A program made the position numbers and the translations under genes. From the NCBI RefSeq assembly GCF_024464595.1, contig NZ_JANHAW010000001.1:682001-746000 (forward strand): DNA of 64,000 bases, written 5' to 3'. Shown here piece after piece: positions 21,792-47,401 of this stretch (its first letter is position 1; each line of letters begins with the position of its first letter). The notes beneath the pieces are model-generated. The model was given only the letters and a program-made list of their open reading frames with translations, was not told where the DNA came from and made no database searches. Source of the DNA: Halobellus litoreus. Its GTDB lineage: Archaea > Halobacteriota > Halobacteria > Halobacteriales > Haloferacaceae.

Positions 21792-22598
21792 TCAATCCTC
21801 GCGGGGATCGCGGCCGGGAAACAACCCCTGTGACAGCAGTCGTTGCGCGATCACGATGAGGCCGTTTCGGAATCCGCCGCCGAAGATCGCCTGTTCCTCG
21901 CGCGTGTCAGAGAGGATCGTGCTCACGAGGACGTTCGAGCGATCGACGAGGAGGAGTCGTCCGATCGCCAGTTCGTCCTCCGAGTTCGGCTGCGGACGCA
22001 ACCACTCGAGACCGGAGACGAACGTCGTGACCCCCGGAAGCACCCTGTGAATCTGCGCTTCGAGCGATTCGTTGACTGCGCCGACGAGTACGTCGACCTC
22101 GTCTTCGAGTCTCTCCACGGCGTCGATCAAATCGTCCGTCAGTAGTGAGTCGTCGCCGAGTACTAAGACGACCTCTTCGTCGGCACCGCTGATGAGCTGA
22201 TTCGATCTGTTCGCGATCGCGTCACTTCCCGAGAGCGCCCACACCTCCTGAACGGGATCCTCTTCTTCTCTTTCGATATCGCCAGCGCTCCTGAGGGCCT
22301 CCCCCAGACGTTTCACCCGCGACTCGTACTGATCACGGAGCGTTTCGGTCGCTTCCTCCAGTGGAACCGCGCGAAATCGCTGCGGGCTCGAATGCTGGAT
22401 TTCGACGAGTCCCTGCGCCTCTAAGACTCGAACGGCGTCGTACACCCGAGTTCGGGGCACGTCGGTGATCTCGCTGAGCTGTTTTGCCGTCCCCGTCGAG
22501 AGTCGCGAGAGACCGACGAAACACTTCGCTTCGTACTCCTTCAGCCCCAGTTGCTGGAGCACCTCCGTTGCCTCGTCTAACGCGTTTTCCGTACTCAT
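21792..22598 (-). CDS. TrmB family transcriptional regulator
   Basis: A 268-residue protein: N-terminal TrmB winged HTH (about 8-80; LGLKEYEAKCFVGLSRLSTGTAKQL..T.VPRTRVYDAVRVLEAQGLVEI) followed by a coiled segment and a C-terminal phospholipase-D-like/ligand domain (about 115-268). TrmB proteins sense sugars or other metabolites and control many haloarchaeal metabolic genes. ATG 22598 is used; the in-frame extension adds three codons. A TGTGTCCCAAC element overlaps the start codon region and recurs at 22892. Confidence 0.88.
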   Translation of the reverse strand: MSTENALDEATEVLQQLGLKEYEAKCFVGLSRLSTGTAKQLSEITDVPRTRVYDAVRVLEAQGLVEIQHSSPQRFRAVPLEEATETLRDQYESRVKRLGEALRSAGDIEREEEDPVQEVWALSGSDAIANRSNQLISGADEEVVLVLGDDSLLTDDLIDAVERLEDEVDVLVGAVNESLEAQIHRVLPGVTTFVSGLEWLRPQPNSEDELAIGRLLLVDRSNVLVSTILSDTREEQAIFGGGFRNGLIVIAQRLLSQGLFPGRDPRED

Positions 22599-22705
22599 GT
22601 GTCCCAACTCACACCCCGGGATACCCCGCGGTCGTCAAACTCTCTCTCCGCTGGGCAAATAGGCGTTGTTACTGGGGGACCCGCCTACTCGGCCGTTCGA
22701 ACCGA

Positions 22706-22724
22706 GCTAGCGAGTTGCGCTAGC
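22706..22724. promoter_or_regulatory. Inverted repeat upstream of TrmB gene
   Basis: GCTAGCG-AGTTG-CGCTAGC is a perfect 7-5-7 inverted repeat, about 108 nt before the TrmB start and in front of an AT-rich run (ATAACATAATTTG). It is a candidate binding site for a dimeric regulator or a small hairpin. Confidence 0.4.
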
Positions 22725-22843
22725 GGGGGTATTCGATAACATAATTTGTTGTTGCTAGAATGATCACAGTAGATTCAAAACGTCTCAAACGGAAGTATAT
22801 AGACGAGAAATAAATATTGAAGTTTAACTCGATTAATCACAAA

Positions 22844-23293
22844 ATGATTATACCGGAGGAAGGCTATCGTGTATCTGGCGCGTTGAGGAATTGTGTCCCA
22901 ACCACAACCCGAACGCGCGCCGGCTCGGCCACCACCGTGGCTGAGTTTCGCGGCTCTGGAGGGACGTTACATATGGACGCAGATTCGGCCGGAACCTCCG
23001 CAATCCCCAACAGTCGGGCACCCCACCGGTTCGACCCCGAACGGACCCTTTTTTATGAGTGCGTAGCGGCGCGATTCGGCTGCATCCTCGACTCAGTTGA
23101 GAACTGGATCGGCGACGCCGCATCGAAGAACGACGTCGTCGTCGGGGGCCAGTCCGTCTCGACCGCGGGCGCTGGCCGGGGTATTGTCAGAGTGCTAGAC
23201 AACCAGATGTACGGACCGACGGGAACAGCCACATCGTTGTACCCAACCGACTCTCACGTGACGACTCACGGCGTGGAGCCGATCGAACACTGA
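22844..23293 (+). CDS. Uncertain hypothetical protein
   Basis: A 149-codon frame from ATG 22844 (or 107 codons from ATG 22973). The codons are GC3-rich from about 22975 on, as in real local genes, and AAATAAATAT lies 26-34 nt before 22844; both favour coding. Against it: the first 40 residues are low in recognisable pattern, no domain is seen, and part of the region is AT-rich. It precedes the HalOD1 gene by 37 nt on the same strand. Confidence 0.35.
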   Translation: MIIPEEGYRVSGALRNCVPTTTRTRAGSATTVAEFRGSGGTLHMDADSAGTSAIPNSRAPHRFDPERTLFYECVAARFGCILDSVENWIGDAASKNDVVVGGQSVSTAGAGRGIVRVLDNQMYGPTGTATSLYPTDSHVTTHGVEPIEH

Positions 23294-23330
23294 CAATGCA
23301 ACAGAGCGGAACATCACTGAAGGAGGCGAA

Positions 23331-23645
23331 ATGAGCGACGAACGAACGAAGGACCCGACCGATTCGAATCCCGATCACGAAACCGTCCGCGCGCGGTACG
23401 ACTGGGAATCGACGCCGCCGTCGACGGCGATCGTCGAGACGATAGCGGAGGCGACCGGTGACAACCCGACAGCCTTGGAACCCCTGTACGAATCGGTGGA
23501 TCCCGACGCCCTGAACGCGCTCTTGACGTCGGTCCCGTCGCGTACTGCCGGACGTGATCTCCGTATCTCGCTGTCTGTGGACGGACACGCGATCACGGTC
23601 TTCGGCGACGGCGGAATCGTCGTCCGACCCGACGGGATGGCGTGA
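23331..23645 (+). CDS. HalOD1 output-domain protein
   Basis: A 104-residue protein. Residues about 30-104 match the HalOD1 pattern (PSTAIVETIAEATG.., EPLYESVDPDALNALL, LRISLSVDGHAITVFGDGGIVV). HalOD1 is a halobacterial output domain linked to signalling and regulation. A strong SD (GGAGGCG) stands 4-5 nt before ATG 23331, unlike most genes here, so it may be translated from a leadered or polycistronic message. Confidence 0.85.
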   Translation: MSDERTKDPTDSNPDHETVRARYDWESTPPSTAIVETIAEATGDNPTALEPLYESVDPDALNALLTSVPSRTAGRDLRISLSVDGHAITVFGDGGIVVRPDGMA

Positions 23646-23786
23646 TCCACGGGGCGATCCTGGACCGTCCCCGACGTACCGACAGTTCGCGGCCGATAGA
23701 TTCCGTATCGTGAAATACGATATATGGATGCGAGATCGGCTGATCGAATCAGTATCTTCAACACCGCCCGTCGCAAACCCGCTCGT

Positions 23787-23948
23787 ATGAGTCTCGAACG
23801 CGAGTACGAGTGCCCCGAGTGCGGTCACACGGGATTCTGGAAGACTGCGTCGATGGAGCTCCACCTCGGCACGAAGACGAAGTGGAGTTGCAACGAGTGC
23901 GGCTACGGCTTCATCGAGATCAACGGCATCAGCACCGCAAAGGCGTAA
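23787..23948 (+). CDS. Small zinc beta-ribbon protein (DUF7838-like)
   Basis: A 53-residue protein with two CxxC knuckles (CPECGH near residue 9, CNECGY near residue 36) separated by a beta segment, forming a zinc ribbon. ATG 23787 is chosen since the protein then begins MSLEREYECPECG; upstream codons look non-coding. A T-rich stretch (CTGTTTTTC) follows the stop at about 23950, a possible terminator for this convergent end. Confidence 0.7.
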   Translation: MSLEREYECPECGHTGFWKTASMELHLGTKTKWSCNECGYGFIEINGISTAKA

Positions 23949-23966
23949 TCGCTGTTTTTCGATCGC

Positions 23967-25388
23967 TCACTCGTCGCCGTCGAGCGCCCGCCAGGAGAGC
24001 CGCGGGTTCCGCGCGGCGTCGGCCTGGTCGATCCGGCGCGCCGTCGTCTTCGACGGCGCGGTCTCGAGTTCGGCGTCGGAATCGGCCATCGCGGCGTCGA
24101 AGGCCGCGGCGAGGTCGTCGAGTGACGCTTTGTTCTCGGCCTCCGTCGGTTCGGTGAGCATCGCCTCCGGGACGAACTCGGGCCACTTCGTCGTCGGCGG
24201 GTGGACGCCGTAGTCGAGCATCCCCTTCGCGATATCGGCCGCGTCGCGCTCGCCCGCCGTGGCCGCGAACTCGTGGTGGAACGGGCCGTACGGGATGTCG
24301 TAGTCGATTCGTTCGGCGAGGTAGTTCGCGTTCAACACGGCCTTCGCCGAGGTGTCTTTCAGTCCCGCGTCCCCGAGCCGGGCGATGTAGGCGTAGGCCT
24401 TCACCAGGACCAGCCAGTTGCCCTGATAGCCGTGGACCTTGCCGATGCTCCGTTCGGGATCGTACAGTTCGTAACGACCGTCGCGCTCGCGAACCCGGGG
24501 TCGCGGGAGGAACTCCGCGAGTTCGTCGACGACACCGACCGGACCGGCACCCGGGCCACCCCCGCCGTGCGGCGTCGCGAACGTCTTGTGCACGTTGTAG
24601 TGCATGATGTCGAAGCCCATATCGCCGGGACGCGCACGGCCGAGCAGCGCGTTGAGGTTCGCGCCGTCGTAGTAGAGCAGACCGCCCGCGTCGTGGACGA
24701 TCTCGGCGATCTCTTCGATGTCGCGCTCGAAGAGTCCGACCGTGTTCGGGTTCGTCAGCATCAGCGCCGCCGTGTCCTCGGAGACGGCCGCCTCCAGCGC
24801 GTCGAGGTCGACCCGACCGTCCTCGCCCGAGGGCAGTTCGACGACGTCGTAACCCGCCATCGCGGCGCTCGCGAAGTTCGTGCCGTGGGCCGACGCGGGC
24901 ACGATCACTTCAGATCGCGGGTCGCCGCGGGCCTCGTGACACGCTTTCGCGATCATAATCCCGGTGAACTCCCCGGCCGCGCCCGCCGGCGGTTGCAGCG
25001 TCACCGCGTCCATCCCGCCGATCCGCGCGAGGTAGTCCTGGAGGCCGGCGAGCAGTTCGAGCGTCCCCTGGACGGTCTCCTCGGAGCGGTCGGGGTGGAC
25101 GCCGCCGTTCGGATCGGCCGCCACGTCCTCGGTGAACGAGGGGTTGTACTTCATCGTACACGACCCGAGCGGGTACGGCCCGGTCTCGACGCTCCAGTTC
25201 ATCTGCGAGAGCCGCGTGTAGTGGCGGGCCAGTTCGGGCTCGGAGAGCCCCGGCAGTTCGAGGCTCTCGCGGGTCAGATCGTCTGGCAACGGCGATTCCT
25301 CGCCGACGTCGACGGTCGTCGCGTCCTTCTCGGAGAGCAGCGGTTCGTATCGGTCGTCGTCGCCGTAGCGTGCCTGATCGTGGTTCAT
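23967..25388 (-). CDS. gcvPB: Glycine dehydrogenase (aminomethyl-transferring) subunit 2
   Basis: A 473-residue PLP enzyme, the C-terminal half of the P protein. The PLP-lysine is in HYNVHKTFATPHGGGGPG; PLGSCTMKYNP and SAHGTNFASAAMAGY are also diagnostic. It pairs with GcvPA to decarboxylate glycine and load the aminomethyl group on lipoyl-GcvH. ATG 25388 shares its A with the gcvPA stop (TAATG), so translation is coupled. The C-terminal 40 residues are a haloarchaeal acidic extension. Confidence 0.95.
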   Translation of the reverse strand: MNHDQARYGDDDRYEPLLSEKDATTVDVGEESPLPDDLTRESLELPGLSEPELARHYTRLSQMNWSVETGPYPLGSCTMKYNPSFTEDVAADPNGGVHPDRSEETVQGTLELLAGLQDYLARIGGMDAVTLQPPAGAAGEFTGIMIAKACHEARGDPRSEVIVPASAHGTNFASAAMAGYDVVELPSGEDGRVDLDALEAAVSEDTAALMLTNPNTVGLFERDIEEIAEIVHDAGGLLYYDGANLNALLGRARPGDMGFDIMHYNVHKTFATPHGGGGPGAGPVGVVDELAEFLPRPRVRERDGRYELYDPERSIGKVHGYQGNWLVLVKAYAYIARLGDAGLKDTSAKAVLNANYLAERIDYDIPYGPFHHEFAATAGERDAADIAKGMLDYGVHPPTTKWPEFVPEAMLTEPTEAENKASLDDLAAAFDAAMADSDAELETAPSKTTARRIDQADAARNPRLSWRALDGDE

Positions 25389-39723: not shown

Positions 39724-39725
39724 AG

Positions 39726-39782
39726 TGGCACGGTCACACTGTCGTGGCACGGTCACGCTGTCGTGACACGGTCACGCTATCG
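39726..39782. repeat. Three tandem 19-bp repeats upstream of the TatD-like gene
   Basis: Copies are 39726-39744, 39745-39763 and 39764-39782. Each contains a GTGRC-ACG-GTCAC core; in copy 3 it is a perfect 5-3-5 palindrome (GTGAC-ACG-GTCAC). They begin 2 nt after the NYN stop codon and end 44 nt before ATG 39827. The 19-bp spacing is just under two helical turns, so dimers would sit on roughly one face. Confidence 0.75.
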
Positions 39783-41089: not shown

Positions 41090-41695
41090 ATGACCGAGGC
41101 CGAGGAGACCTACTACACCGAAGAACGCTGGCAGAACTGGCTCTCCCGCGTCGAAGAGGAAGAGCTCGATCCCGAGAACGAAGACTCCGCGCGATTGCTC
41201 CTGAATCTCCAGGACGACGCCGCCATCGCGGTGGCGAAGATCGTCTCCGCGTACGAGGAGGATCGGCTCGACGACGAGGAAGCGATCGAAGAACTCGAAC
41301 GCGTCCGGACGATCGTCCTCTCGGAGCCCGAACTGGACATCGAGGATGACGCCGCGCGCGAGGACAAAGAGATGCTCGTCGACGGCGTCCAGACGAGCCT
41401 CGTCTGCGTCTTCTACGCCGCGGAGGAGTACATCGTCGCCGGCGCGGCCGAGGAGGCCCCGCTCTCGGAGTACGTCGAAGCCGCGGCGGCCGCCGAGCAG
41501 GACGACGATATGGACGCCGCACTGGGCTACCTCGTGCAGGCCGGCACGCGGATCATCGTCGGCGACGAACTCGATATGGCCGTCGTCGACGACCTGGAGT
41601 ACGGCCTCGTCTCCGAGTGGGTCAACGGCCTCGACAGCCTCCAGAGCGCGATGAGCGACCCCGAAGTCGTCGAAGAAGAGGAAGACGACGACTGA
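41090..41695 (+). CDS. DUF2150 family protein
   Basis: A 201-residue, highly acidic helical protein: YYTEERWQNWLSRVEEEELDPE at the N-terminus, a helical core (LLLNLQDDAAIAVAKIVSAYE), and a second helical half ending in an acidic tail. It matches the archaeal DUF2150 pattern. No catalytic motif is visible; TTTGAATC lies about 25-32 nt upstream. Solitary gene. Confidence 0.85.
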   Translation: MTEAEETYYTEERWQNWLSRVEEEELDPENEDSARLLLNLQDDAAIAVAKIVSAYEEDRLDDEEAIEELERVRTIVLSEPELDIEDDAAREDKEMLVDGVQTSLVCVFYAAEEYIVAGAAEEAPLSEYVEAAAAAEQDDDMDAALGYLVQAGTRIIVGDELDMAVVDDLEYGLVSEWVNGLDSLQSAMSDPEVVEEEEDDD

Positions 41696-41788: not shown

Positions 41789-43573
41789 ATGTCTCTCCGA
41801 GACGACGACAGGGCCGTGACCGTGCAGATCGGCGCGGTCCTGTTGCTCGGGTTTCTCGTCGTCTCGCTGTCGCTGTACCAGGCGACCGTCGTCCCGAACG
41901 AGAACCGCCAGGTCGAGTTCCAGCACAACCAGCGCGTGCAGGCGGATATGCAACAGGTCAGGAACGCCATCCTCGGGACGGCCGCGACGGGATCGTCAGC
42001 ACCGACCGGCGTCGAACTCGGGACGCGCTATCCGACGCGCGTCGTCGCCGTGAACCCCGGCCCGCCGAGCGGGACGCTCTCGACTGCGGACCTCGGAACC
42101 ATCCGGATCGAGAACGCGACGGCCGACGATGAGTCGACGGCGGGTCCCGACTACCCCGAGACGGCGGACTTCTGGGACGGCGACACCACGCGCACCTACA
42201 CCACGAAGTCGCTGGTCTACCGACCGGACTACGCGAACTACGACGCCGCCCCGACGACGGTCTACGAGAACGGGGTCGTGTACAACCGCTTCGACTCGGG
42301 GACCCTCACGCGGACCGGGCAACCGATCGTCGCCGGGAAACGGATCTCACTCGTCGCGCTCTCGGGGAACCTCTCGCGCGGCGGGGCCAGCACGCTCTCG
42401 ATGAATCCGCGGGCGGTGAGCACCTCGACACGGACGATCAGCGTCTCGAACGTCGCGGAAGGCGAGAACGTCTCGGTCTTCGTCCCCTCGCGGCTGAACG
42501 CGCAGTCGTGGACGGACCTGCTGAACGAGACCGGCGAGTACGACCCGGCTGCCGACCCCGATAACGACGCGTACGTCTACCGGGTCGAGAACGTCGAGAA
42601 CGGCGGACAGGACGGCGTCGAACTGTTCTTCGAGCCCGACGCGACCTACCAGCTGAAGCTCTCGAAGGTCGGCGTCGGGAGCGGCGTCGGCGACACCGAG
42701 CCGGCGTACCTGACGAGCGTCGACGACCTCGAGTCGAACCCCTTCGAGAGTCGCACTTATCCGTTCACGGTCGAGTTGCGCGACAAGTACAACAATCCCA
42801 TCGGACGCAGCGTCGAGGCCGGGAGCGAGGAGACGACGATTCCGGACGGCGTGGTTCTCGAACCGGGACGCTACCGCTATCGGTACACCGCGCCCGACAG
42901 TTCGGCGGCGAGTTCGGACTCGATTGGCGTGACGTTCCTGACTGAGTCCAGCGATCCCGTCTACGACGTCGGGAACCCATCTTTCGAGGGAGAGCGCGTG
43001 GAAAACGTGGAGTACGACGTGGACATCCAAGCGGCGGGTGGGGGTGGTGACGGTGGGGGTGGCGACGGCACAGGTCCGCTCGCCTTGCAGGCAGGCAGTG
43101 GCGAAGCGAACGCGAACGGAGGTGAATCGACTGGAATTCAGTTCGTGATGAATAACGAGGGAAGCGAGGCAGTGACGATCGAGAGCATCGAACTGTCCGA
43201 TCCCTCAAACACTGCGTCGCTGGTGTACGAAAGCAACGGCGGTGACGGTGACGGACAAAACGAAGTGTTCGTCGACGTCGGCGATAACGGCGCCAACACA
43301 AACGATCCGGAGGACGGATACTACGATTCTGGCGACGGGAACGGAAACAATAACAACTGGCAAACCGGGACGACCGGCACACTCGACGACTCGGCACAGT
43401 TATCCGGATCCGAGTCTGCGCGGGTGTACATCTACCGATTTTACCAGTCACGAAGTGGCGCGGGGAGCAGCACGACGGCAGATATGACTGGTGAGAGTAT
43501 TACAGTTAGATTCACATACACTGTAAACGGCAATGAGTACACGGAAAGTTACGACGTAACCGCTTCGGCGTAG
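41789..43573 (+). CDS. Large surface protein with pilin-like N-terminal anchor
   Basis: A 594-residue protein. Residues 14-33 are hydrophobic after a short basic/acidic tip (R-A-V-T-V-Q-I-G), followed by a charged helix (VPNENRQVEFQHNQRVQADMQQ), as in archaeal type IV pilin-like proteins processed by PibD. Residues about 50-430 are Ser/Thr/Asp-rich beta domains. The C-terminal domain (about 430-594) is Asn/Gly/Asp-rich and its codons are much less GC3-biased than the rest, e.g. near 43500-43560. It may be a pilin-like adhesin or assembly protein working with the next gene, which starts 64 nt later. Confidence 0.7.
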   Translation: MSLRDDDRAVTVQIGAVLLLGFLVVSLSLYQATVVPNENRQVEFQHNQRVQADMQQVRNAILGTAATGSSAPTGVELGTRYPTRVVAVNPGPPSGTLSTADLGTIRIENATADDESTAGPDYPETADFWDGDTTRTYTTKSLVYRPDYANYDAAPTTVYENGVVYNRFDSGTLTRTGQPIVAGKRISLVALSGNLSRGGASTLSMNPRAVSTSTRTISVSNVAEGENVSVFVPSRLNAQSWTDLLNETGEYDPAADPDNDAYVYRVENVENGGQDGVELFFEPDATYQLKLSKVGVGSGVGDTEPAYLTSVDDLESNPFESRTYPFTVELRDKYNNPIGRSVEAGSEETTIPDGVVLEPGRYRYRYTAPDSSAASSDSIGVTFLTESSDPVYDVGNPSFEGERVENVEYDVDIQAAGGGGDGGGGDGTGPLALQAGSGEANANGGESTGIQFVMNNEGSEAVTIESIELSDPSNTASLVYESNGGDGDGQNEVFVDVGDNGANTNDPEDGYYDSGDGNGNNNNWQTGTTGTLDDSAQLSGSESARVYIYRFYQSRSGAGSSTTADMTGESITVRFTYTVNGNEYTESYDVTASA

Positions 43574-43637: not shown

Positions 43638-45986
43638 GTGAGCGGTCCGCTACCTACTACTGTCAACCGCGCCCAAACAGAGTCCCTCGGGAGCCTGCTC
43701 CTCGTCGCGGTGGTCGTCGTCAGCGGAGCGACCTTCGGCGCGTACTACGTCGCCTCGACGAGTGGCGGTGGTGCGGGCGGGTCGGCGGGCGGTGCCGGCG
43801 GTGCGGCAGGGTCGACGGCGGACTTTACGCTGTCTGCGAGTGAGGAAACGCTCCAACTCGAACACAACGGCGGGCCGTCGTTCTCGGTCGACGACCTTCG
43901 CGTGACCGTCAGGAACGACTCCGGGGAGTTCTCGTACGCCTTCGCTGACGGACAGATCCGCGGCGACGCGAACGGGCAGTTCGACCCCGGAGAGACGTGG
44001 CAACTGGCGTGGGCACAGTCCGCCGGTGCGGACGTCACTGTCTCGCTCGTCGACGACGACGCGGAGACGCTCCTGCTTCAGGAGACGGTCTCGATCACCG
44101 AGAAGTCGACTGTTCGCCCGGCCGACCTCGCACAGGGAGAGACAGCATCTGACGGCGGGAGTCTGCCTCCGGGTGATGAAGACGGCAGCGACCAGACTCC
44201 GGGCGATGGCGAGGATACCGACGAGGCGGAGAAGCCTTCAGGGCCGTGGTTAGACGTCGACGACGACGGCGAGTACGAGACCGCCGACGGCGACGTAACC
44301 GTCGACCTCTCGTCCGGGACGGTCCCCGGCAGTTACTCCGAGACGGCGTCGTCGGCCACGCTTCGCGTTCCGGACGACGTAACGGTCGAGACAGGGCGGA
44401 ACGCGATCGATCTGAGCGCCGAAAACGTACGTCTCGCCGGCACGCTACGAACGAAGGGTTCGGTCGCGCTCAACGTGCCCGGGTACGTGGCTCTTCCCGG
44501 AGGCACGATCGACAATGCGGGCGGATGGAACAGTGTCACGGTGAAATCAGGCGATGACCGTATCACCGCCAGCAGTGCATCCATTCAGTCGAGAGGAAGC
44601 ATCTCGATATCCGGAGCCCACGGCGTACAGATGACGGAGTCCGTCGTCGACAACACCGCCAACTGGAACAGTATCAGCATCAAGTCCGGCGACGGGGCGA
44701 CCGATCTCGAAGGGACGACCGTGGCCTCGCGGGGCAGTATCTCGGTCGCGGCGTCGGACGCGGTGCGACTCCGCAACGGACAGATCAATAATCTACGGGG
44801 CTCGAACAGCGTGACCGTCAAATCCGAGCAAAGTGCCGTCGTCGCCCCTGGGGTGAGTGTCACCTCAAAAGGCTCTATTTCGATCTCTGGCTCGCAGGGC
44901 GTCCAAATGGGGTCGGCTACGATCACCAACGCCGCCGGGAGCAACAGTCTCACCGTCGCGTCCGGTGGCGGGGCAGTCGACGTTCACAACGCTGATATCG
45001 GATCGAAGGGGAGCATCTCGATCACGGGATCGACTGGCGTCGACACCACCTCCACGTCGATCGATAACGAAGCGGGGTGGAACAGCGTCACCGTCTCGAC
45101 GGACGACGGCTCGGTTTCTGGCGACCGGATGACGATCAAGTCGCAGGGAAGCGTGACCGTCAAAGCCAGTGACGGAGTTATTGCTCAAAACACGGAGATA
45201 ATCACCCGAAGTTCGGTAGCTATCAGAGGGTCGACGGCCGTCGACGTCGGCCAGTCGCTGATTACCAACGAGGAAGGTGACGGCAGTGTAACCGTGATTT
45301 CGGATACTGAGGCGGTCGACGCTGTCCGAACCCGCGTGGCCTCCGGCGGGAAGGTGTCTATCACCGCGGGGTCGTCAGTGCGCCTGACGGGAACGACGGT
45401 CGACAACACTGCGGGATGGAGCGGCGTGTACGTCACGTCCACGGACCGTCGTCTCTCGGCCCGTGAACTATCGGTCAAAACGAAGGGCGATCTCCGTCTC
45501 ACCGGGGACGAGAACGTGACGCTGACAGACGCCGAACTGGACGCCTCGGAGGGGTGGGGTAGCCTCGACGTGAGTTCCGGGAACCGCCTCGAAATCGATA
45601 ACGCGACCGCCGTCGGCAAAGGGCAGATATCGATCAGCTCGGGACGTGGCATCGACGCCACCGGGTCCACCCTCGACAACGCGGAGAGCTACAACAGCAT
45701 CTCCCTTGCAGTGAGCGATGCAGGCGATATACTGCTCGTCGAGACGACGATCCGGTCACGAGGGCACGCTTCGGCTGAAGTTCCCGTGGAGTCGAGCAAC
45801 CCCCAGGGAGAAGGTAGCGGACGTGGGAAAGGCCAGGGCCGCGGGGAGGGCACCTCAGACGACGAAAACGCTTACATCGTCGACGTCACGGACGCCATTA
45901 TCGGCGACGCGGACGGGTACTTGGAGGTCTCTCCGGAGAGCGCGGTGGTCGGCGACCCGGCATCGGGAGTCGCCGGCAGCAACTGA
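43638..45986 (+). CDS. Pilin-type anchored beta-solenoid surface protein
   Basis: A 782-residue protein starting at GTG 43638 with TTTTATC 25-31 nt upstream. Residues about 10-40 have the pilin-like pattern (R-A-Q-T-E-S-L-G-S-L-L-L hydrophobic). Residues about 55-145 resemble an archaeal pilin/DUF1628 beta sandwich (LQLEHNGGPSFSVDDLRVTV ... FDPGETWQLAWA). From residue 292 on, nine 46-residue units (one 45, one 21-residue half) repeat the pattern DN..GWNSVTVKSGD...TV.SKGSISISGS.GV...T, i.e. two 23-residue coils each, the size of right-handed beta-helix rungs. The C-terminus is Gly/Arg-rich then acidic. Likely a surface adhesin or filament cap. Confidence 0.72.
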   Translation: MSGPLPTTVNRAQTESLGSLLLVAVVVVSGATFGAYYVASTSGGGAGGSAGGAGGAAGSTADFTLSASEETLQLEHNGGPSFSVDDLRVTVRNDSGEFSYAFADGQIRGDANGQFDPGETWQLAWAQSAGADVTVSLVDDDAETLLLQETVSITEKSTVRPADLAQGETASDGGSLPPGDEDGSDQTPGDGEDTDEAEKPSGPWLDVDDDGEYETADGDVTVDLSSGTVPGSYSETASSATLRVPDDVTVETGRNAIDLSAENVRLAGTLRTKGSVALNVPGYVALPGGTIDNAGGWNSVTVKSGDDRITASSASIQSRGSISISGAHGVQMTESVVDNTANWNSISIKSGDGATDLEGTTVASRGSISVAASDAVRLRNGQINNLRGSNSVTVKSEQSAVVAPGVSVTSKGSISISGSQGVQMGSATITNAAGSNSLTVASGGGAVDVHNADIGSKGSISITGSTGVDTTSTSIDNEAGWNSVTVSTDDGSVSGDRMTIKSQGSVTVKASDGVIAQNTEIITRSSVAIRGSTAVDVGQSLITNEEGDGSVTVISDTEAVDAVRTRVASGGKVSITAGSSVRLTGTTVDNTAGWSGVYVTSTDRRLSARELSVKTKGDLRLTGDENVTLTDAELDASEGWGSLDVSSGNRLEIDNATAVGKGQISISSGRGIDATGSTLDNAESYNSISLAVSDAGDILLVETTIRSRGHASAEVPVESSNPQGEGSGRGKGQGRGEGTSDDENAYIVDVTDAIIGDADGYLEVSPESAVVGDPASGVAGSN
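44511..45782 (+). repeat. Nine 138-nt coding repeats (46 residues) of the beta-solenoid
   Basis: Units begin at codons 292, 338, 384, 430, 476, then a 21-residue half unit at 522, then 543, 589, 635 and 680 (partial). DNA identity is low but protein spacing is exact, showing old duplication under structural constraint. Each unit is an A coil (NSVTVKSGD..) and a B coil (SISISGS.GV..). The half unit at 522-542 is a B-like coil, so the A/B alternation breaks once. Confidence 0.85.
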
Positions 45987-46063
45987 GACGACGCCGCCGC
46001 ACTTAGACGATCGTCGACAGTGCTATCGACAAACCAATAAGCGGTACGCGAGATAGACGAGGT

Positions 46064-47401
46064 ATGACTGCCGTCGGCATCGACGCCATCGAACTCTGGA
46101 CGGGTAAACTGCGACTCGATCTGCCGAATACCTTCGCGCCGGTGAAGGGCGAAGACCCCGGCAAGTACACGAAAGGAATCGGCATCGAGTACTCCTCGCT
46201 CCCGGACGTCTACGAGGACATCGTGACGATGGGCGCGAACGCGGCGAAGCGCCTGATGGACCGCGAGGGACTCACCCCCGACGACATCGGTCGGATCGAC
46301 GTCGCGACCGAGTCCGCCTTCGACAACTCCAAGCCGGTCTCGACGTACGTCGCCGGCTGTTTAGAGCAGGTCTACGACGGCGACTTCCACCACGCGAACA
46401 AGGGCGAGCGGAAGTTCGCGTGCCTGTCGGGCACGCAGGTCATCGACGACGCGTACAACTGGATCCGCGCGGGTCGGAACCGCGGGCGCGCGGCGCTCGT
46501 GATCGCGACCGACACGGCGCTGTACGAGCGCGGCGACCCCGGCGAGGCCACCCAAGGGGCCGGCGCGGTGGCGATGCTCGTCGACGAGGACCCCGACGTC
46601 GTCGCGCTCTCGACCGAACAGGGCTACGGGAGCGCCGACGAGACCGACTTTCTGAAACCCAACCAGCAGTTCCCGAGCGTCGACGGCAAGCGCTCGATCC
46701 AGGTGTATCTCGCGCGGATGCGCGAGGCCCTCGAGGACTACGAGTCAGTCGCCGGCGACACCCACCCCGACGATTTCGTCTACTTCCCGTTCCACACGCC
46801 GTACCCGGGAATGGTCCGGAAGGCCGCGTTGCTCGGGTATCGCCACATCACTCGCGGCACCGACATCGAGGACGCACTCGCCGACGACATCGGGATGCAG
46901 CCGCGCGAAGCCGACTTCGCGGAGTGGGACGACTACGAGGAGGCGATCCGGGCGTACATGGACGAACTGAAGGAGACGCGTCGGTACCGCGAGTGGTACG
47001 AGCGAGCGATCGATCCGACGGTCCGGATCGCCGGACAGGTCGGCAACTGGTACACCGGATCGGTCCACCTCGCGCGGCTGTCGGCGCTCCGTGCCGCCGC
47101 CGAGGAAGACGCCGACCTCGTCGGCGAGAAACTGCTCGTCGGCTCTTACGGGTCCGGCGCGCAGGCGGAGATTCACGCCGAGACCGTACAGGACGGCTGG
47201 CGCGAAGGCGTCGAGGCCGTCGACGTCGAAGCCCGCCTCGACAATCGCTACGACCTCTCGTACGAGGAGTACGAACTCGTTCACGACGTGCACAACCACG
47301 AGAAGGAGGTCGAGGTCGACGAGTTCACACAGCCCTCCGGCGAGTTCGTCTTCACCGGTTGGGGACGGATGAACGAACGACGCTACGAATACGTCGAGTA
47401 G
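46064..47401 (+). CDS. hmgB: Hydroxymethylglutaryl-CoA synthase
   Basis: A 445-residue archaeal HMG-CoA synthase. Catalytic Glu83 (ATESAFDNSKP), Cys120 (FACLSGTQ) and the His in FPFHTPYPGMVRKA are present. It condenses acetyl-CoA and acetoacetyl-CoA for the mevalonate route to archaeal lipids. CAATAAG about 25-30 nt upstream supports ATG 46064. Length is normal for haloarchaea. mvaS is the bacterial-style name. Confidence 0.94.
   Translation: MTAVGIDAIELWTGKLRLDLPNTFAPVKGEDPGKYTKGIGIEYSSLPDVYEDIVTMGANAAKRLMDREGLTPDDIGRIDVATESAFDNSKPVSTYVAGCLEQVYDGDFHHANKGERKFACLSGTQVIDDAYNWIRAGRNRGRAALVIATDTALYERGDPGEATQGAGAVAMLVDEDPDVVALSTEQGYGSADETDFLKPNQQFPSVDGKRSIQVYLARMREALEDYESVAGDTHPDDFVYFPFHTPYPGMVRKAALLGYRHITRGTDIEDALADDIGMQPREADFAEWDDYEEAIRAYMDELKETRRYREWYERAIDPTVRIAGQVGNWYTGSVHLARLSALRAAAEEDADLVGEKLLVGSYGSGAQAEIHAETVQDGWREGVEAVDVEARLDNRYDLSYEEYELVHDVHNHEKEVEVDEFTQPSGEFVFTGWGRMNERRYEYVE

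Follow-up and report, generated by a model that had tools for sequence, protein, structure and literature searches.

Genes and features of the locus

The window analysed here is a stretch of 64,000 nucleotides of Halobellus litoreus (contig NZ_JANHAW010000001.1, positions 682,001 to 746,000), in which two genes of large pilin-like proteins, designated below as carrier A and carrier B, stand one after the other between a DUF2150 gene and the HMG-CoA synthase gene. The interval between these two border genes is referred to as the slot. The features, all on the forward strand, are the following:

41090..41695 (+), DUF2150 gene, left slot border (PF09920, 6.5e-66)
41789..43573 (+), carrier A, 594-aa pilin-like protein with a weak DUF7289 match, ending 64 bp upstream of carrier B
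43079..43570 (+), C-terminal tail of carrier A, variable among relatives (GC3 0.646 versus 0.879 in the rest of A)
43638..45986 (+), carrier B, 782-aa pilin-like protein with a solenoid (GTG-start ORF, same-place orthologues, AF2 model)
43638..43757 (+), predicted class III signal of carrier B, leader MSGPLPTTVNRA followed by QTESLG..., hydrophobic helix to about residue 40
43815..44099 (+), archaeal pilin beta-domain, residues 60-154 (AF2 pLDDT ~84, Foldseek and VIA match to 8fj5, weak Pilin_N)
44088..45988 (+), putative exchanged ectodomain segment (blastn breakpoints, GC3 0.755 versus 0.88-0.94 in flanking genes)
44100..44246 (+), acidic unstructured linker, residues 155-203 (27% D+E; pLDDT <50 across 156-221)
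44253..44288 (+), EF-hand-like loop DVDDDGEYETAD, residues 206-217, start of the solenoid module (aligned in 8/8 founding members)
44508..45782 (+), beta-solenoid coils, residues 291-715, 46-residue period (autocorrelation, AF2, unit table, VIA)
45873..45983 (+), C-terminal piece YIVDV...YLEVSPESAVVGDPASGV, residues 746-782 (like the P-x-x-x-V-x-G-x-P-x-x-G ends of many module proteins)
46064..47401 (+), HMG-CoA synthase, right slot border (NF041302, 1.7e-263)

Carrier A has its own pilin-like N-terminus, DRAVTVQIGAVLLLGF..., and its AF2 model reached a mean pLDDT of 46. Neither carrier is adjacent to pilus machinery genes, and no pilB or pilC lies beside them within the window. The host genome encodes a single prepilin peptidase and pilins of the Pilin_N type, and has six matches to T2SSE-type ATPases; three Pilin_N (PilA-type) genes are found within ~1.1 kb at G000:C1:757976-759062, ~12 kb past the right end of the window.

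Two other observations concern the surroundings of the slot. Three tandem 19-bp copies (GTGGCACGGTCACGCTGTC, 92% match), possibly regulatory, are located at 39725-39782 between LabA-like and TatD-like genes, and at 22001-24000 the local G+C falls to 0.591, the surrounding genome region being at ~0.67.

Pilin-type anchor of carrier B

The archaeal prepilin rule demands a charged residue at position -2 and G, A, or S at position -1 (PMC4371748). In accordance with it, residues 11-13 of carrier B are R-A and Q, followed by a hydrophobic helix, and the PibD cut is predicted between A12 and Q13, where processing would take place. R11, Q13, and S16 are invariant across 8 orthologues, and the H. inordinatus orthologue occupies the same chromosomal place with 68% identity over nearly full length. 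The AF2 model, built on a six-row alignment, consists in this part of a helix at residues 11-32 and a beta-domain at residues 62-152 with pLDDT ~84. The best Foldseek match of carrier B in PDB was the Haloferax volcanii type IV pilus 8fj5 (E 2.9e-3), VIA gave Z 8.9 for the same structure across residues 59-154, and archaellins together with FlaF/FlaG were also present in the list of fold matches. Both assignments of the sequence-only reading for this part of the protein, namely, a PibD-processed pilin-like N-terminus and an archaeal pilin beta domain at residues 55-145, agree with these results.

With the Pfam Pilin_N model (PF07790) carrier B scored 15.2 bits (E 0.042), which is under the curated cut-off of 25.2 bits, while its slot relatives clear this cut-off with 27.8-53.3 bits. 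Judged by these scores, carrier B is kin to Pilin_N through intermediates, yet it is no filed member of the family.

Solenoid of carrier B

Behind the linker the AF2 model places a beta-solenoid that spans residues 233-715 with pLDDT mostly 85-97, this part of the model resting on just two aligned sequences. Its 46-residue period gave a lag-46 autocorrelation of z=12.4 versus shuffles, none of which came near. The solenoid is regular, with ~20 coils of three short strands each, and a low-complexity segment follows it. The sequence-only reading had proposed nine 46-residue beta-helix units, each of two 23-residue coils; the beta-helix and the period are present in the model, whereas the unit proved to be ~24+22 residues and the row of nine is broken by one additional coil at ~521-541. 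By its sequence the C-terminal piece, residues 746-782, is to be counted as part of the solenoid module. We infer calcium binding for the EF-hand-like loop at the module start.

Among right-handed beta-helices the solenoid was matched by VIA to the P22 tailspike 2xc1 (Z 14.4), the GH28 exopolygalacturonase 2uvf (Z 12.5), and Ag43 chains (Z 12.6-13.1). In the Pfam and NCBIfam scan of carrier B no model covered the solenoid module, and no lyase, hydrolase, other enzyme, or lectin family was matched; TIGR01731 gave 10.8 bits, under its 18-bit cut-off, and PF13332 (Fil_haemagg_2) gave no match, while two relatives (L036 and L109) pass the Fil_haemagg_2 cut-off. The phmmer search against PDB sequences returned weak matches only, one of them a pectin lyase-like chain with E 0.035, and the Foldseek search against viral structures gave nothing under E 0.001.

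Six of the nine units carry an aromatic residue in one register (5 W and 1 Y), and all 11 aromatics from residue 231 onward are kept in the H. inordinatus orthologue, where overall identity is 72%. This register suggests a putative binding face for an extended polymer, for example, a polysaccharide. Haloarchaeal proteins are acidic in general, and the acidity of the solenoid (pI 4.4, 7% K+R) is little informative on the ligand.

Solenoid module family in haloarchaea

The search for the module, with an alignment of eight module starts as a query, found it in 66 of 391 haloarchaeal genomes, belonging to 22 of 86 genera; the phylum-wide sample added one genome outside the order (G604), where it lies in a 1536-aa ORF (G604:C1:484872-485285, E 4e-18). 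N-termini judged from sequence in 57 module proteins are A-type pilin (22) and B-type pilin (11), the others being SipW/TasA-like, of “RPVDVSV” type, or unassigned. The pilin-type N-terminus and the solenoid are therefore joined in homologues as well, and none of the observations that the earlier reading had named as refuting it (no beta-helix in the model, no pilin-like N-terminus, parts never joined) was made. The module lies toward the C-terminus in 57/57 proteins, few of which have >100 residues past the last match; the EF-hand-like loop D-x-[ND]-x-[ND]-G-x-Y is present in 44 of them, and a terminal P...V.G.P..G motif is common to many. In the cap alignment the fully conserved positions are only D, G, Y, L, and G of the loop and coil. 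According to these sequence comparisons the solenoid represents a module family that has no name yet and combines with N-termini of at least four kinds.

The A-family carries the module itself in other genera, while in H. litoreus it is carried by B. Because the module is found on A or on B of the same slot depending on the genus, the two proteins plausibly present their heads in the same structure.

Several members of the family deserve separate mention. The short SipW/TasA-like N-termini (..TTYGxFSDxExxxGSIQAA..) precede the module at L086, L087, L089-L091, L094, L096, L101, L102, and L036, possibly as a second haloarchaeal surface-fibre type. Thirteen proteins (L095, L099, L103-L107, L110, L112, L117, L120, L122, and L125) have an undescribed N-terminus LWYxGVL..VPTGSFSxxxGxRPVDVSV. 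In genome G340 (L079:1922-4628, minus strand) a B-type N-terminus of 145 aa overlaps a PKD-plus-solenoid ORF in a different frame, which may be a frameshift, an assembly error, or a split gene. Weak module-like matches at L034 and L035, obtained in the single-sequence search, were dismissed as chance, since the ORFs concerned read as ABC-transporter-type permeases.

Slot between DUF2150 and HMG-CoA synthase

The DUF2150 gene was found in 391/391 haloarchaeal genomes searched, and the order DUF2150, A, B, HMG-CoA synthase is kept in 8 genomes besides H. litoreus. In a sample of one locus per genus from 40 genera (loci L136-L175) the two border genes were linked within the fetched stretch in 30; between them lay an A-type pilin in 23 of these linked genera, and an empty gap of 112-212 bp was observed in the other 7. 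The slot is conserved across haloarchaea and holds one or two large pilin-like carriers. The domains of the slot proteins include PA14, Laminin_G_3, Malectin, PKD, fn3, CARDB, FG-GAP-like, and LTD-like ones, several of which are carbohydrate-binding or adhesive elsewhere, and many A stalks contain an invasin/Big_1-like domain. The solenoid module was absent from all slot proteins of this unbiased 40-genus sample; the solenoid-bearing slots were found via their module, so that they prove its occurrence and give no frequency.

Ectodomain replacement

The B proteins of five Halobellus species share the pilin domain (48-67% identity in the matched part), and PKD-like domains follow it in place of the solenoid; one further species of the genus has a B that ends with a short acidic tail, and in a different genus B runs on into PKD, malectin, and an LTD-like domain. 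Within Halobellus only H. litoreus and H. inordinatus carry the solenoid on the slot B. In the tree of flanking proteins, H. litoreus is grouped with two genomes of PKD type, G009 and G011 (support 100/98), and H. inordinatus (G014) with G015, also of PKD type (support 100/99). The flanking genes reject the solenoid pair as a clade (p-AU 7e-5), and so does the B pilin domain alone (AU p 0.002). The pilin domain of H. litoreus B is 75% identical to that of G009 and 55% to that of G014, while its solenoid is 72% identical to that of G014.

The blastn similarity to G009 and G011 is lost at ~44087, at about residue 150 on the border of pilin domain and linker, and the similarity to G009 is back at 45989, 3 bp beyond the carrier B stop codon. 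GC3 of the B ectodomain (0.755), as well as of the A tail (0.646), is below that of the carriers or neighbours (0.81-0.94). The tree conflict together with the breakpoints argues for ectodomain exchange inside the carrier B gene, and in the simplest account the ectodomain would have been replaced by recombination, either twice or once with subsequent transfer. Alternatively, the solenoid may be ancestral and repeatedly replaced by PKD heads, which would still need head switching.

The tail of carrier A is of three unlike types within Halobellus, which suggests that it represents a second exchanged segment. One tail type is common to both solenoid genomes; another genus pairs a similar tail with a PKD-type B, so that tail and head types do not vary together in a strict way. 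Silent donor cassettes were also considered and rejected, since the module matches in the H. litoreus genome are confined to the carrier B gene. No relative of the solenoid was found among PLSDB plasmids. The conserved slot, the partner pilin A, and the ectodomain exchange had been missed by the sequence-only reading.

Interpretation and alternatives

Taken together, we consider it probable, with moderate confidence, that carrier B is an archaeal representative of the modular pilins and that its solenoid serves as an exchangeable head for adhesion or glycan binding, replaced at the slot by recombination. The class III signal would direct the protein to Sec and PibD, after which the mature pilin module would remain in the membrane and/or join a type IV pilus, where it would most likely be one of the minor subunits exposed at the tip, beside the large pilin-like A. 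From what is established on type IV filaments, the tip is the best place for a pilin that bears a bulky module at its C-terminus. Outward from the pilin module, the flexible acidic linker would carry the calcium-loop-capped right-handed beta-solenoid as an exchangeable head, and haloarchaea retain the pilin carriers in the slot and swap their heads. Sequence and model directly show the architecture, the fold, the slot, the replacement of heads, the phylogenetic conflict, and the common module family, whereas PibD cleavage, pilus assembly, and the partnership with A belong to the proposed part of this reading. Against it weigh the Pilin_N score under the cut-off, the lack of pilus machinery genes next to A and B, the two-sequence basis of the solenoid model, the low-confidence model of A, and the loose pairing of A tails and B heads. 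We infer an adhesin role of the solenoid, possibly with an aromatic ladder that binds a polysaccharide or surface, and this role is favoured because carbohydrate-binding-type domains substitute for the solenoid in relatives.

The main rival explanation, which we regard as rather unlikely though worth serious attention, is that the pilin-type N-terminus merely anchors B in the membrane and never enters a pilus, the solenoid projecting through the S-layer from the cell body. It would account for a length of 782 aa, far exceeding ordinary pilins, for the location of A and B away from pilB/pilC genes in the window, and for the module occurring also behind SipW/TasA-like and other N-termini, so that the module can be used without assembly of a pilus. 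However, a conserved pilin beta-domain matching solved pilus subunits exceeds the needs of a plain anchor, and similarly built bacterial modular pilins sit in pili (PMC8179133, PMC9934059).

The remaining alternatives keep the pilin and differ in the work of the solenoid. As a passive rigid spacer or stalk without its own ligand it would explain the regular row of coils, the low-complexity segment behind them, and the missing Pfam enzyme or lectin domain, but no large domain follows the solenoid, every module protein has the module close to its C-terminus, and it stands in for binding-type domains at the same position, so that we hold this role to be improbable. A surface enzyme, that is, a carbohydrate-active beta-helix of pectin lyase or GH28 type on a pilin, is brought to mind by the VIA matches to 2uvf and 2xc1; the non-enzymatic Ag43 is in the same Z range, no lyase or hydrolase family was matched, and full conservation of the cap is limited to D, G, Y, L, and G, all of which make enzymatic activity very improbable. 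We give equally little credence to the receptor role in DNA uptake that has been proposed for Thermus ComZ. ComZ uses lysines, whereas the solenoid of carrier B is acidic and poor in lysine and arginine, as is to be expected to some extent of haloarchaeal proteins. Although ComZ binds DNA and is, like carrier B, a pilin with a beta-solenoid (PMC6561018), its solenoid lies within the pilin beta-sheet as an insertion (PMC8179133), while that of carrier B follows the pilin domain.

A bolder version of the preferred modular pilin reading, which we offer tentatively as somewhat short of probable, is that the slot is a dedicated head-exchange locus where A and B assemble into a heteromeric adhesin at the pilus tip, with ectodomain cassettes recombined between species and the calcium-capped solenoid as one of several heads. 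To our knowledge, little has been described so far of the tip adhesins that archaeal type IV pili carry. The locus offers a testable set, in which sister species combine one pilin anchor with natural heads of different kinds and the same module is swapped between two carrier families. It is also a natural system for studying the forces behind ectodomain turnover, be they surfaces, mating partners, or viruses.

Comparison with known systems

The sequence-only reading knew of no named system of such make-up, which did not hold. Modular pilins are a named kind in bacteria, with lectin and PA14 modules listed among their heads (PMC8179133), and a large beta-solenoid is present on the pilin ComZ of Thermus thermophilus, which binds DNA through lysines and for which a pilus-tip position was argued (PMC6561018). 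Carrier B shares several features of this kind, namely, a predicted class III signal, a pilin module with a pilin fold and, joined to it, an extra module without pilus specificity, here the solenoid; for processing and polymerisation into a filament the host genome encodes a prepilin peptidase and assembly ATPases. The published census of modular pilins used bacterial IPR012902-type pilins (PMC8179133). As a kind, the modular pilin is known from bacteria; what the present locus adds is its archaeal setting, a solenoid module family without a name, and a slot in which heads are exchanged.

The nearest counterparts are PilB (vWA) and PilC (lectin) of S. sanguinis, which, like carrier B, consist of a class III signal, a pilin module, a linker, and an unrelated C-terminal binding module (PMC8179133, PMC9934059). 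The PilB/PilC set resembles the slot also in having two modular pilins in one gene set, with lectin and PA14 among the head types. Carrier B differs in its archaeal pilin fold and beta-solenoid head, and the slot differs in its housekeeping location without pilus machinery genes and in that closely related species exchange heads at a single locus. A tip position was argued for PilB and PilC as well as for ComZ (PMC8179133, PMC9934059, PMC6561018). ComZ is similar in its large beta-solenoid; in carrier B, however, the AF2 model places an acidic solenoid C-terminally, behind a complete pilin domain and linker, and the anchor is unrelated.

Among archaeal proteins, the H. volcanii PilA-type pilins (Pilin_N, PF07790; 8fj5) match the pilin beta-domain of carrier B but are short adhesion pilins without an extra module. 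In the Sulfolobus bindosome, large non-pilin ectodomains likewise stand behind archaeal class III signals, though these are solute-binding proteins and not solenoids (PMC4371748). Adhesins of the Antigen 43/FHA type (Fil_haemagg_2, TIGR01731) have a beta-helix architecture like the solenoid, and relatives of the module match Fil_haemagg_2, while carrier B stays below the family cut-offs, lacks autotransporter or TpsB secretion, and has an archaeal pilin anchor. If the bolder reading is true, the head-exchanging tip of A and B would be the archaeal answer to the PilY1 and PilABC tips.
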